Of a DNA stretch of 64,000 nt, positions 25,265 through 48,793 are shown one piece after another; within the stretch, counting starts at the first letter, position 1, and each line of letters starts with the position of its first letter. Made by a program: the position numbers and the translations under genes. This DNA is from Fimbriimonas sp. (GTDB lineage Bacteria; Armatimonadota; Fimbriimonadia; Fimbriimonadales; Fimbriimonadaceae), in the NCBI GenBank assembly GCA_029866005.1, contig JARXAE010000023.1, forward strand, positions 62,001 to 126,000, read 5' to 3'. The notes beneath the pieces were generated by a model. It had not been told where the DNA came from, did no database searches, and was given only the letters and a program-made list of their open reading frames with translations.

Positions 25265-25376
25265 GCGGCACCGCCGCGTAGGGCACGGGTCCCAAAGTCG
25301 GATGGAAGGTGCAGCGAACGCGGAGCCTTCCGTCCGACTTTGGGAGGGGATTGGCCTTGGGCTCGCGCGGTGCCGC
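25265..25376. repeat. Palindromic repeat element, copy 1 (full length)
   Basis: A 112 bp element with perfect ten-base ends (gcggcaccgc at 25265-25274, gcggtgccgc at 25367-25376). An inner stem of 19 bases is 18/19 matched (25291-25309 with 25326-25344) around a 16-base loop containing agcgaacgcgg. It shares two strongly conserved blocks with copy 3 (cgcgtagggcacggg-like and gggattggccttgggc). Its right end overlaps the stop codon of the next gene. Confidence 0.85.
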
Positions 25377-26281
25377 TAGAAGACCGCTCGACTCAGAAAC
25401 TCCATTTCTTTCCGAACCTGTTCTCGAGTCCCTATCGCAAGATAGTGATAAAAAAAGTGCCATCCAGGGGGATCAGATAGCTTCACCCGAGATACGCAGT
25501 TCCACTTCACTACTTTCTCGGATTTGAATCGCCAACGACCGTAGCGGTTCACGTCGCGCTCTTTCTGGTACTCCCCAGGTGGGGCCGCAGGAACATAGAT
25601 TCCCATGGCAAACTTGCCGTCGGGTGTTGAAAACACGATTGGATCAAGTTGCTCTCCTGGCCCGTCGCTTAGGGGTTCGAGTTTGGAAGATTTGGCATCG
25701 AATCGGAAGAACTTTGAGAACTCTGCAGGCATGTAACCAGTCAGCGATTCAAAAACCGCCTGTTTCTGGCGCTCGTTAGGATGGGCGCCAAAAACTACTT
25801 GGTATTCGATCAGTTGCGACCGACCCAACGTTCCTATGGTGACGTACTTGGTCATGTACCAAGGGGAGAGCACCGTGGTGTTTTTAGCAAGATTCGAGCC
25901 TGAACTCTCGCCCGGAGCAAGCCAGAAGGCGAGCCGGCTATTCGCGATAAGCCGATTGTCCTTTGCGTCGATAGACAGCAGGTCAGAAGAAGACGTCGGA
26001 CCGGTTCCATCACTCCGCGAACCAGCCTCTGTCGGGTTGTAAGTCTCATCTGTGATCGGCGATCCGCCATCAAAGTTCGCCGCCGACTGCAACTGCCGAC
26101 CGTGGTCAGTCGAATCGATGAACTCCTTCCCTCGCCATTTCAGTGAATGAATCGCTCCAGCCACCCGCGTTGTCGTCGTAATAACTATTTCCGAGTCCGG
26201 CGTTCGACCTCGAATCACCGCATCCCCTGAGACCTGCGTGAGCAACAAGCTGACAGCCGAGATCATGTCCCAATTTACCAC
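25376..26281 (-). CDS. Unrecognised exported protein
   Basis: A 301-residue protein that I do not recognise. The start is MVNWDMISAVSLLLTQVSG, or MISAVSLLLTQ from the second ATG at 26266, which looks like a signal peptide. The body is rich in beta-strand patterns and polar loops (SLKWRGKEFIDSTDHGRQLQSA, YNPTEAGSRSDGTG, WYMTKYVTIG, GWHFFYHYLAIGTREQVRKEM). The DHGRQLQ and NPTEAGS stretches look like conserved ligand or catalytic loops of an unnamed secreted family, possibly with a sugar-binding beta-sandwich fold. Its stop codon sits in the end of repeat copy 1 and its start is near repeat copy 2. No function can be assigned. Confidence 0.75.
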   Translation of the reverse strand: MVNWDMISAVSLLLTQVSGDAVIRGRTPDSEIVITTTTRVAGAIHSLKWRGKEFIDSTDHGRQLQSAANFDGGSPITDETYNPTEAGSRSDGTGPTSSSDLLSIDAKDNRLIANSRLAFWLAPGESSGSNLAKNTTVLSPWYMTKYVTIGTLGRSQLIEYQVVFGAHPNERQKQAVFESLTGYMPAEFSKFFRFDAKSSKLEPLSDGPGEQLDPIVFSTPDGKFAMGIYVPAAPPGEYQKERDVNRYGRWRFKSEKVVKWNCVSRVKLSDPPGWHFFYHYLAIGTREQVRKEMEFLSRAVF

Positions 26282-26367
26282 CCTCGCTCAGGAGAAGCAA
26301 CAATCGGACTTCCTGGGGCCCAAACTGCAAAACCCCTAACTACCCCGCACCCGCAACCCCCGCAGCT

Positions 26368-26428
26368 CCGCCGCGTAGGGCACGGGTCCCAAAGTCGGAC
26401 GGAATGCGCAGCGCATGCGGAGCCGTTT
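26368..26428. repeat. Palindromic repeat element, copy 2 (left half)
   Basis: About 60 bp matching the left half of copy 1: the ccgccgcg start, the agggcacgggtcccaaagtcgga block and the loop with cgcatgcggagcc. The right half is missing and no closing arm is found. It lies in the 162 bp gap between two minus-strand genes, close to the stop of the 26444 gene. Confidence 0.8.
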
Positions 26429-26443
26429 CACATCATCAATATT

Positions 26444-27274
26444 CTAAAGTCGCCACATCTGGCCGGCCCAGCTCTCATTCGACGGACGCCGACCCGACCG
26501 AACATCCGTCAGCCAAGAATCAATCCCTTCTTCCTTTGCAAACGACCATCCCTCTTTGCACCGAAGAAGGTAGTTCTCGACCGCTTTAAATTGCTGTTTT
26601 CCAAGCAACTCATCCGCCAGCCGCATCCGAGGCCCGAATGAGCTCGTCACCGGAGAAAATGTGTCTACGGACCGAATCAGATGCTCTCCGGCAGCCTCAA
26701 TCTTCCCCTCCCTCAGAGCAATCAAGCCAGACATCTGGTGTCCATAATGCAGTGCATCCCCATTCACTCCGGTCGGAAACTGATAGGTTGACCGACTTAA
26801 ACGGTCAGCCGCAATCGCCTTTGGATACTTAGTTTCGCCACCATAGACAAACACATAGCCTGCAGTGCGAGCCAGGCTATCAAACGCAAACCGATCAATT
26901 TTTGCATCCGCTAACTGCAACAATGCTTTCTGGACTATTCCGAGGGAAGCCCGGCAAGTCTTGGCTCGCCCCTCCTCCAGGTTCGCAAGATCGGATACAA
27001 AATCGTCAATCTTTTCAATATTTTCCGGGCTGACTTTTGGAACAGTCAAACCTGAGGCCCGTATTACTGCCGGATCGCTTTCGAACGTTGTTCCCGCCAG
27101 CGCATTCTTAACCACCGAGGCGGAAACGCCGAAGAGTCCATCTGAGAAAGCTTTGACGGATACAACCCCCACAGCGACTCCCGCTGCCATCATCACCATC
27201 GTTCGCCCGCTATGCATACTGATTACAATACTGCAGCCTTTTAGGCAAAAGATGCCTAGAACGATCACCTTCAT
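26444..27274 (-). CDS. Unrecognised protein with N-terminal membrane anchor
   Basis: A protein of up to 276 residues that I do not recognise. The ATG at 27217 (MHSGRTMVMMAAGVAVGVVSVKAF) is a more natural start than 27274 and gives one N-terminal hydrophobic helix or signal anchor and 257 residues. The rest is soluble and mostly helical, with repeats of the look of TPR-type helices in the last half (DALHYGHQMSGLIALREGKIEAAGEHL, RMRLADELLGKQQFKAVENYLLRC). A scaffold role at the membrane is possible. It is on the minus strand upstream of the 25376 gene. No function can be assigned. Confidence 0.7.
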   Translation of the reverse strand: MKVIVLGIFCLKGCSIVISMHSGRTMVMMAAGVAVGVVSVKAFSDGLFGVSASVVKNALAGTTFESDPAVIRASGLTVPKVSPENIEKIDDFVSDLANLEEGRAKTCRASLGIVQKALLQLADAKIDRFAFDSLARTAGYVFVYGGETKYPKAIAADRLSRSTYQFPTGVNGDALHYGHQMSGLIALREGKIEAAGEHLIRSVDTFSPVTSSFGPRMRLADELLGKQQFKAVENYLLRCKEGWSFAKEEGIDSWLTDVRSGRRPSNESWAGQMWRL

Positions 27275-27427
27275 TAAATACTCAGAATCACCCTCATCCC
27301 AGTAACTCCACCATCATATTCACACACTTACCGCATTGGAGATGAAGCTTCCTTGGGCTCGGTCAAAGCCACCAACAATCTGCAACCACCAGGTTGACAA
27401 AACCCCGAAATCATCGCCTATAGAGTG

Positions 27428-28459
27428 ATGATCGAATACGACGACACCGACCAAACCCAAGACCCCGACTTCTGGACCAAAGACCACTACCCAGAAAAGC
27501 AGCCAAGCCAAGAAATCCCCTTCCCCTGCTACCCGGACCGCGAACCCACTCCCGCCCGCCACCAGTTCCAACAGGTCAAATCGAAGAACCTCAGCACCTA
27601 CTCCCGCGCCAACGGGGCCGAAACCCTCTTCGTCAAAAACTCCCTCATCCTCCTCTCCGGCCTCCCCAAATCCGGAAAAACTACCCTCGCCGTGGCCCTC
27701 GCCGATGCCATCGTCAAAGGAAAACCCTTCGCCGGATTCCGTCTGCCCAAAACCGCCGTCGGCTACGTCAGCTTCGACGACTCCCCCGCCGAAATCCTCG
27801 CCGCCATCGACCGCCACGATGACCTAACCGAAGACTCCCCCTTCTTCCTGAGCATCATGAACGACCCCATCGACACCCGCGATGGCCTCGAACAAATCGA
27901 AGACTTTCTCATCAGTCAAAGAGGCGGAGTCGTCATCATCGACTCCCTCCACGCCGCTCTCACCAAATCCCAAACCCGCGACGCCCGCCAAGTCCGAAAC
28001 CTCATCACCCCCCTCAAACGCGTAGCCGAACGCGCCGGAACCATCATCCTCATCCACCACACCGACGCCCACGGAAAACGCGCCGGAGACCACACCCAAA
28101 TCCAAGCCGCCGTCAGCCAAACCGTCCTCATGTCTACCCAAGAAAATGACGGCTTCCGCCTCATCAAACTCCAATGTAAAGGAAGAGGCGCAGGCTCCTA
28201 TAGAAAAATCCACCTCCTAAGCCGCAGCGAAACCCACTACCAACCCCACAATCCTAACCCAACTGCCAACCTCCACGCCTTTGACCGGAGTACCAAACCG
28301 ATCATCGAAGCACTATTCAAAGGGCCCAAGACCGTGAACGAACTAGTCGAACTGACGAATCTATCGCCACAACGAATCTACAAACGCATCAAACACCTAG
28401 TTACCCACGGGTACGTCCTTTTCTCCAGTGCCCGTCCCCGCAGGTTCAAAATTGCCTAA
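27428..28459 (+). CDS. RepA-like AAA ATPase with C-terminal winged-helix domain
   Basis: A 343-residue RecA-fold ATPase of the AAA_25/RepA kind. Walker A GLPKSGKTT is at about 78-86, Walker B VVIID near 168-172, and the family's IIHH-type sensor (IILIHHTDAHGKRAG) near 207-219. A loop region of helicase type follows (QAAVSQTVLM). Residues about 295-340 form a winged helix (TVNELVELTNLSPQRIYKRIKHL). AAA_25 proteins are usually plasmid or phage replicative helicases or appear next to primases, but none is seen here. The gene stands alone, followed by a repeat-rich 360 bp gap. Start is ATG 27428, with an adjacent GTG at 27425. The codon use is very C-rich at third positions. It may be a relic of an integrated element. 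Confidence 0.75.
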   Translation: MIEYDDTDQTQDPDFWTKDHYPEKQPSQEIPFPCYPDREPTPARHQFQQVKSKNLSTYSRANGAETLFVKNSLILLSGLPKSGKTTLAVALADAIVKGKPFAGFRLPKTAVGYVSFDDSPAEILAAIDRHDDLTEDSPFFLSIMNDPIDTRDGLEQIEDFLISQRGGVVIIDSLHAALTKSQTRDARQVRNLITPLKRVAERAGTIILIHHTDAHGKRAGDHTQIQAAVSQTVLMSTQENDGFRLIKLQCKGRGAGSYRKIHLLSRSETHYQPHNPNPTANLHAFDRSTKPIIEALFKGPKTVNELVELTNLSPQRIYKRIKHLVTHGYVLFSSARPRRFKIA

Positions 28460-28464
28460 CCGAA

Positions 28465-28643
28465 TTACCCCGCTTTACCCACTTTACAAGCAAGAAATGA
28501 CCCAACCGAACCTGAGTTACCCCGTTTACCCACCTACCCTCTCCGATTCCCAACCGACAACTTCTAACTGTCAACTACAAGCCAACAAACCAAATCCGCT
28601 GCCCTGCAGCGTAGGTACTCCCGACTCCCAACTACAAGCCAAC
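28465..28643. repeat. Short direct repeats after the RepA-like gene
   Basis: Two direct-repeat pairs lie in the gap after the ATPase stop. The motif ttaccccg-ttta-cccac occurs at 28465-28482 and 28517-28533. The 15-base motif caactacaagccaac occurs at 28572-28586 and 28629-28643. No gene is visible here. The arrangement is reminiscent of replication iterons but too short to prove it. Confidence 0.6.
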
Positions 28644-28649
28644 CAACCC

Positions 28650-28693
28650 CCATCCACAACCCATCCACAACCCACCCAAAACCCACCCAAAAC
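28650..28693. repeat. Four tandem 11 bp units
   Basis: Four head-to-tail 11-base units: ccatccacaac twice, then ccacccaaaac twice. The block sits immediately before repeat copy 3 and is strongly C-rich on the plus strand. It is too short and lacks spacers, so it is not a CRISPR array. Confidence 0.85.
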
Positions 28694-28694
28694 C

Positions 28695-28806
28695 GCGGCC
28701 CCGCCGCGCAGGGCACGGGACCCAAGGTGTCTTCGTTCCCAAAGCGAATGCGGCGGGAACGGAGACGTCTTGGGTGGGGATTGGCCTTGGGCAAGCGCGG
28801 GGCCGC
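28695..28806. repeat. Palindromic repeat element, copy 3 (full length)
   Basis: A 112 bp element with perfect ten-base ends (gcggccccgc at 28695-28704 and gcggggccgc at 28797-28806). An inner 20-base stem matches 17 of 20 (28721-28740 with 28755-28774) around a 14-base loop with agcgaatgcgg. The stem sequences differ from copy 1 but remain complementary, while gggcacggg and gggattggccttgggc are conserved. It lies 15 bp past the stop of the minus-strand gene at 28821. Confidence 0.85.
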
Positions 28807-48596: not shown

Positions 48597-48629
48597 AAAA
48601 AAGCCCATGACCAACTTTCGATCATGAGC
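48597..48629 (-). terminator. Riboswitch-controlled terminator in the ahcY leader
   Basis: Eight-base stem (plus-strand gcccatga at 48603-48610 with tcatgagc at 48622-48629, one G-U pair) with an 11-base loop, followed on the minus strand by six T (48597-48602). The GCTC at its 5' arm is also part of the conserved riboswitch end, so binding of SAH should block this hairpin. It lies about 40 bp upstream of ahcY. Confidence 0.85.
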
Positions 48630-48681
48630 GCCGTTTATTCGCCGAGCCTCGCCACTCGAAAGTGACTGCAACGCCCCTCGG
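48626..48681 (-). ncRNA. SAH riboswitch
   Basis: On the minus strand the leader contains CCGAGGGGCGTTGCAG, a small hairpin, then GAGGCTCGG and AACGGCGCTC-like sequence (ACGGCGCTC). These are the conserved blocks of the S-adenosylhomocysteine riboswitch (Weinberg and colleagues): the P1 helix is CCGAG with CTCGG and the pseudoknot involves GCG(T/C) with GGCGC. It precedes ahcY, the usual target, and its 3' end shares bases with a terminator hairpin. Confidence 0.92.
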
Positions 48682-48793
48682 CTACTTACTATTATGGCGC
48701 TGCAAGCTCAAAAGTTACCAAATTTCAATGTTTTTTGAAAGGAACTAGCTTCTGACCCGCGTCTCCAACAGCTCTACAGATAAACTCTGCGGC

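Follow-up and report, generated by a model that had tools for sequence, protein, structure and literature searches.

Hairpin repeats in the window

Intergenic repeats that keep their stems paired while the stem sequences change from copy to copy raise the question of what reads them, and in what form. We met this question in a stretch of 64,000 nucleotides from a Fimbriimonas sp. contig (JARXAE010000023.1, positions 62,001 to 126,000; hereafter, the window), whose host phylum, Armatimonadota, is poorly studied with respect to genome biology. An earlier note had described here two 112-bp palindromic copies with 10-bp inverted ends, together with a half copy, all intergenic and in a single orientation. 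The two full copies (A and C) lie exactly where that note had placed them, and the half copy (B), which it had set at 26368-26428, exists and is better placed with the limits given in Table 1. Each of the three lies between genes on the + strand, and copies A and B are antisense to both of their flanking genes.

The predicted fold of copies A and C comprises a 10-bp outer stem (P1), a short P2, an inner stem (P3) that measures 21 bp instead of the 19-20 bases first estimated, and a small apical hairpin. RNA minimum free energies were -77.9 kcal/mol for copy A and -76.3 kcal/mol for copy C, compared to shuffled means near -50, and none of 200 shuffles folded as well as either copy. With DNA folding parameters, the z values were -6.5 and -4.4, respectively. 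Although 34 of 112 positions differ between copies A and C, the observation that the differing stems stay paired held: 14 of the 21 inner-stem pairs differ, 11 of them by two-sided changes and 3 by one-sided changes that keep the pairing, with none broken, and the outer stem differs by a single compensated pair. The inner sequences reported as conserved are so, and the 5′ linker AGGGCACGGG is invariant (Table 1).

Table 1. Positions of the hairpin repeats, their parts, and the neighboring ATPase unit in the window
Feature	Position	Strand	Remarks
Full copy A, 112-bp hairpin repeat	25265-25376	+	RNA fold z -7.42; model R1 126.1 bits; homologous copies at the same locus in G018 and G001
Copy A, outer stem P1, 5′ arm	25265-25274	+	GCGGCACCGC; pairs with 25367-25376
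Copy A, conserved 5′ linker AGGGCACGGG	25280-25289	+	Invariant in the eight copies of alignment A3
Copy A, inner stem P3, 5′ arm	25290-25310	+	Covarying helix
Copy A, inner stem P3, 3′ arm	25325-25345	+	Covarying helix
Copy A, conserved 3′ linker GGGGATTGGCCTTGGGC	25346-25362	+	Pattern match; common to the sister family
Copy A, outer stem P1, 3′ arm	25367-25376	+	Pairs with 25265-25274
Copy B, truncated, 5′ half only, no longer foldable	26362-26428	+	First 63 bp 89% identical to copy A; fold z -0.65
Left end (L-end) of dispersed unit, GGTTGACAA N15 GCCTA, also promoter-like	27392-27420	+	30 occurrences in G000, 19 each in G001 and G018, 0 for the reversed control
AAA_25-type ATPase, C-terminal winged-helix-like region	27425-28459	+	PF13481, E 4e-18; paralogs carry the repeat just downstream
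Full copy C, 112-bp hairpin repeat, other inner-stem lineage	28695-28806	+	RNA fold z -7.04; model R1 127.3 bits; 91% identical to a G018 copy at a different locus
Copy C, conserved 5′ linker AGGGCACGGG	28710-28719	+	Invariant
Copy C, inner stem P3, 5′ arm	28720-28740	+	Fold
Copy C, inner stem P3, 3′ arm	28755-28775	+	Fold
Copy C, conserved 3′ linker GGGGATTGGCCTTGGGC	28776-28792	+	Pattern match; alignment A3

The window family covaries across three related genomes

The idea of an element family had been made to depend on further copies and on significant covariation, to be sought with a covariance model, and such a search found multiple intergenic copies with strong covariation in this genome and its relatives. 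A model built from eight copies (R1) gave 10 matches in the genome that holds the window (G000; 2.8 Mb), 12 in G018, and 5 in G001, counts that include a few reverse-strand echoes of strong copies, and no match in 17 other congeners. A model from 24 copies (R2), searched against 113 genomes of the order, matched the same three genomes and none of the remaining 110. Repeat counts throughout depend on the limited numbers of candidates that the searches scored. A chance origin of the repeat is excluded by the covariance model, with about 10 copies in its own genome and a best E value of about 1e-23.

Window-family copies are about 101-125 nt long. In an alignment of 24 of them that was fitted to the structure, and which therefore leans towards pairing, 32 of 42 pairs change on both sides, and covariation reached 0.534, compared to 0.197 after shuffling and at most 0.145 in slid controls. 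Alignment A3 (MAFFT, trimmed copies, no structural fitting) still gave 0.387 versus 0.162 for the control. The inner stem contains 62 G.T cells compared to 3 A.C cells, indicating that one defined strand is the folding strand.

A sister form extends the plan to about ten genera

When the 3′ linker was used to scan a genome collection, a locus (L097) emerged in another Fimbriimonadaceae genome, G113, which is apparently the same genome as G069. This genome gave 34 near matches versus 3 for the reversed control, and the matches listed included 15-16 clear elements of the same plan with a shorter inner stem, namely, P1, GGGGCAGA, P3, GAGGGATTGGCCTTGGGC, P1′. A viral-contig scan with a 16-mer and a genome-collection scan with GGATTGGCCTTGGGC returned mostly unrelated DNA, the useful matches being L097 and one locus in G001 (L081). 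A match to AGGGCACGGGNCCCAA in G023 was discarded since, judged by eye, it is apparently lipoamide acyltransferase-like coding sequence.

A model of 15 sister elements with clipped inner loops (R3) matched 17 of the 113 genomes, representing 10 genera of the same family (Fimbriimonadaceae), at E values up to 1e-3. With 45 candidates scored per genome, there were at least 43 matches in G069, at least 25 in G086, and at least 23 in G084. One R3 match is a window-type copy in G018 (E 3e-4), and this independent match links the window and sister groups; the sister form itself is present in the 16 genomes matched beyond this carrier. Sister copies are about 52-107 nt long.

The plan common to both groups is P1 - GGGGC[A/G] - P3 - GGG..TTGGC..[T/C]GGGC - P1′. 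Among 71 distinct superfamily sequences, all 19 modelled pairs change on both sides, with a covariation of 0.739 versus 0.159 after shuffling in an alignment fitted to the structure and of 0.490 versus 0.153 in the unfitted alignment A6. The sequences of P1 and P3 vary freely yet pair (P1 arms are, for instance, ATTTATTCATTC/GAATGAATGAAT and AATTTTTTGTTC/GAACAAAAAAT), and the linkers are fixed. The purine after GGGGC also covaries with the pyrimidine before GGGC (A-T 27, G-C 20, G-T 11, and A-C 1 in the superfamily; A-T 19 and G-C 3 in the window family). Wobbles in the superfamily helices are very rare, with 9 G.T in about 600 P1 cells and 4 G.T versus 21 A.C in P3. Copies with common stems occur in bursts, as in the seven G113 copies of the model with P3 ends CCGGAC..AACCGG. 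Stems differ widely even inside one genome, a diversity for which recent copying is not a sufficient explanation. In a separate observation, one stretch of G050 (L374, contig C4, 5237-8444) holds five sister-repeat copies within 3.2 kb, between tandem paralogous genes that are PEP-CTERM-type-like.

Copies lie near gene 3′ ends and, in the window family, on one skew strand

With genes called by a simple hexamer method, 14 of 24 window-family copies were located at most 60 bp from a gene 3′ end, and a single one of the 24 was in a divergent gap, compared to 41 of 153 gaps in the background. The tendency was weaker in the sister family (15 of 36 near a 3′ end; 5 of 34 divergent). Window-family copies were also found mostly on the strand of negative local GC skew (23 of 25 copies, about 16 of 18 loci), with a p value of about 0.001 that is optimistic since the loci are partly linked. 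Coding strands showed no mean skew, and the third-position skew of genes on the two strands had the same sign in most regions. This orientation bias fits insertion through replication-fork single strands; it is absent from the sister family (21 versus 15).

Gain or loss of copies and change in place

Older copies are conserved at the same locus, and orthologous copies occur in two or three species at several loci. Copy C and the G018 copy that is 91% identical to it are at different loci (Table 1). Presence differs between species: the G018 copies at C1:1667k and C2:5258 have no counterpart in G001, and the G092 copy at 2498403 is absent from the orthologous G093 site. The inner hairpin alone was lost at one site in G093, and the core at another, P1 being kept. 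In the apparent orthologs L355 (G093) and L366 (G092), one has lost exactly the inner hairpin but retains P1 and the two linkers. The filled and empty sites were too diverged at their edges to show whether a target site had been duplicated, and no such duplication was seen. The idea that P1 is a host-derived hairpin serving as the target was rejected as a general rule: an empty site in G001 has part of a P1 arm, but the site lacking the 2498403 copy has no palindrome.

Inner-stem differences between orthologous window-type copies are mostly single, with rare double changes (2), whereas those between different lineages are mainly double. Between G092 and G099, an orthologous sister-family stem was rewritten with its pairing kept; orthologs differ by whole-stem rewrites, as at site 222288; and the orthologous copies at site 2195603 in G092, G093, and G099 kept their pairing through several compensated changes, which suggests either function or template switching in place. 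At one further site, G094 carries the element and G099 an ordinary terminator-like hairpin. Pairing is thus kept between lineages and, at least sometimes, in place.

Comparison with transposases and known repeat families

A RAYT/IS200-type transposase had been proposed as a candidate partner. Y1 transposase genes do exist in 17 of 20 congeners; however, none of those inspected was near a copy, and no Y1/RAYT gene was common to all three carriers. The inspected Y1/RAYT flanks in G000, G001, and G018 consisted of other sequence, which in several cases included hairpin repeats of a different kind. Model R2 found no repeat copy at 8 Y1 loci, a tblastn search of 79 superfamily loci with 5 Y1 proteins was likewise negative, and Pfam detected no transposase or recombinase among the tested cluster genes. 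RAYT-like Y1 genes at six loci (L305, L306, L307, L308, L309, and L311) are flanked by hairpin repeats of their own, e.g., GATGCCTCCACAGTCGCACTGTGGAGGC. At the repeat, Rfam gave no family at the gathering score and, at a permissive threshold, chance-level matches alone on 12 loci. The sole gathering match in the window is a SAH riboswitch at 48619-48683.

REPs associated with RAYT (TnpA-REP) are intergenic hairpin repeats, mostly in convergent or codirectional gaps by gene 3′ ends, and are thought to be mobilized in trans (PMC3733652, PMC2817692, PMC8266576). The repeat likewise forms intergenic hairpins downstream of genes, with few in divergent gaps. REPs, however, are 20-40 bp long, usually present in high copy numbers, and mostly marked at one end by a GTAG or CGTC tag, whereas the units here are about 52-125 nt, with stems that vary within a genome, conserved internal linkers, and no associated RAYT; no terminal tetranucleotide was conserved in the aligned copies or flanks. 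ERIC, RUP, Correia, and other bacterial MITEs are foldable, interspersed intergenic repeats of about 100-170 bp without a transposase gene of their own (reviewed in PMC10969869 and PMC2229807). The repeat shares these traits, and its copies also show presence/absence polymorphism. ERIC-, RUP-, and Correia-type families are recognized by shared sequence, several of them by the terminal inverted repeats of a cognate IS. In contrast, the ends of the repeat are inverted but of free sequence, and no cognate transposon or IS was found for it.

The ends of IS200/IS605-type elements (IS608 and ISDra2) are recognized through subterminal secondary structures in one strand, and the lagging-strand template is targeted (PMC6006769). 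Secondary structure in one strand is a common point, but the repeat has no adjacent Y1 gene, its orientation bias is limited to the window clade, and its folding strand would be the leading-strand template if the G-rich strand is the leading strand. Integron attC sites are conserved in structure more than in sequence, as is the repeat, and are recognized as a folded single strand. They have conserved end boxes and are found in cassette arrays, whereas the repeat has free ends, fixed inner linkers, and dispersed copies; the integron-cassette idea was rejected because the ends are not conserved and clustered copies occur in both orientations.

The repeat therefore resembles REPs and MITEs in location, dispersion, and gain or loss but differs from them in size and lacks a terminal tag, a RAYT, and conserved termini, so we describe it as a variant of an intergenic palindromic mobile repeat. 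The suggestion of a REP-like or MITE-like family or an RNA element stands as regards a dispersed, covarying repeat and falls as regards the transposase link; the family is broader than a simple REP or MITE because stems differ within one genome while the linkers are fixed. Its signature of free-sequence helices, fixed internal linkers, and an extra covarying pair matches no Rfam family or RAYT-linked REP class tested. The open-access literature held no account of such a repeat in Armatimonadetes or Fimbriimonas, and the family is apparently undescribed.

What may read the folded strand

Fixed G-rich linkers between helices that are free in sequence yet paired point to something that reads the folded single strand. 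The explanation that we prefer, and to which we give an even chance, is that the copies form a Fimbriimonadaceae-wide group of non-autonomous, REP/MITE-like mobile hairpins recognized as a folded single strand. A trans-acting enzyme would recognize the linkers held between the two helices of one folded strand, most likely single-stranded DNA, with the linkers as its recognition surface, and would spread copies through this intermediate into intergenic gaps, mostly at gene 3′ ends. Since the enzyme would require paired stems and the linkers but no particular stem sequence, different burst lineages could have different stems. Covariation, interspersed copies, bursts, absences at orthologous sites, placement at gene 3′ ends, and the skew orientation of the window family speak for this reading. 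Against it are the negative search for a mobilizing enzyme, the lack of a skew bias in the sister family, the wide stem differences inside one genome, and the compensated changes in place at 2195603. In a wider formulation, which we advance more tentatively, the repeats of about ten Fimbriimonadaceae genera may form a class of structured RNA or single-stranded DNA modules. Their two helices, free in sequence, would hold out a fixed G-rich internal-loop core for a lineage-specific protein or mobilizing machine other than RAYT/REP.

The main rival to the mobile hairpin is a structured RNA element at mRNA 3′ ends (a terminator, stabilizer, or protein-binding site), with the folded RNA under selection and old copies functional in place. 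We regard it as possible but rather unlikely. Placement at gene 3′ ends agrees with it, as do the strand-specific wobble of the window family, the compensated changes in orthologous P3 stems of G092 and G099, and the terminator-like hairpin in G099 where G094 carries the element. In addition, a hand count of changed pairs between orthologs gave about 20 G.U versus 2 A.C (p of about 0.001 against an expectation of 25:17). However, copies A and B are antisense to both neighbors, superfamily helices almost lack wobbles, no consistent U-run (T-run) follows the hairpin in the copies and flanks viewed by eye, several copies differ in presence between species, and Rfam offers no match.

The earlier note had taken compensatory change as a sign of selection on structure. 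The pattern is real, but hairpins with compensatory substitutions can also be produced and preserved by template switching (PMC8794818), so that covariation alone is no proof of selection and part of the pattern could have arisen without it. We nonetheless consider it improbable that these are ordinary repeats that owe their continued pairing to template-switch mutation at DNA replication, with covariation overstating function. The near-perfect Watson-Crick stems of the superfamily, with few wobbles, and the whole-stem rewrite at 222288, which resembles a single event, are what such a process would leave; it does not account for invariant unpaired linkers in about ten genera, for the R/Y covariation, or for the strand-specific wobble of the window family.

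Favoring the mobile hairpin as we do, we note that identifying the reader of the linkers would reveal either a new kind of hairpin mobilization or a new, widespread 3′-end element. The family provides ready covariance models for this purpose and a natural experiment, in that some genomes have dozens of copies and their siblings lack them, and orthologous sites occur both filled and empty.

A mobile ATPase unit beside copy C

Copy C starts 236 bp after a gene for an AAA_25 ATPase. Its paralogous units occupy non-homologous sites, yet their alignments (82% over 1413 bp and 90% over 1126 bp) begin precisely at GGTTGACAA, a common start which indicates that the unit is repeated and mobile. The hairpin repeat is found inside or directly upstream of ATPase-type units at about half of its clade loci, and unit left ends were on the strand of negative local skew in 29 of 29 cases examined (27 of 27 with the downstream flank alone; 23 of 29 with the upstream flank alone). 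That the 112-bp repeat is a cis part of this unit, such as an origin or end hairpin, with solo copies as remnants, is very improbable. In favor of it, the ATPase family occurs in all three carriers versus 1 of 17 non-carriers (50% identity; p of about 0.0035). In two unit lineages the repeat is also placed between the ATPase and the right end, and in most others it precedes the left end by about 12-22 nt; such adjacency greatly exceeds the 0.6% expected by chance at each locus. Against it, no unit is close to about half of the window-family copies, the repeat is missing from four ATPase paralogs, and the sister family was found independently of the unit, with no such unit noticed there.

The unit is of some interest in its own right. 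In the window, it spans 27392-28540, and the ATPase, with its wHTH-like C terminus, is its sole evident gene. Its boundaries are common to paralogs at unrelated sites. The start codon follows the promoter-like start GGTTGACAA by about 26-35 bp, and near the right end is a TTGAACCT/CGAACCTGAG motif flanked by iteron-like pairs. Among the approximately 68 left ends in G000, G001, and G018, short derivatives of the unit (about 150-250 bp) appear to be dispersed, some with short reading frames, e.g., MIKFCRPRAKHPK, and in each copy TTGAACCT is flanked on its two sides by matched iterons whose sequence is particular to that copy.
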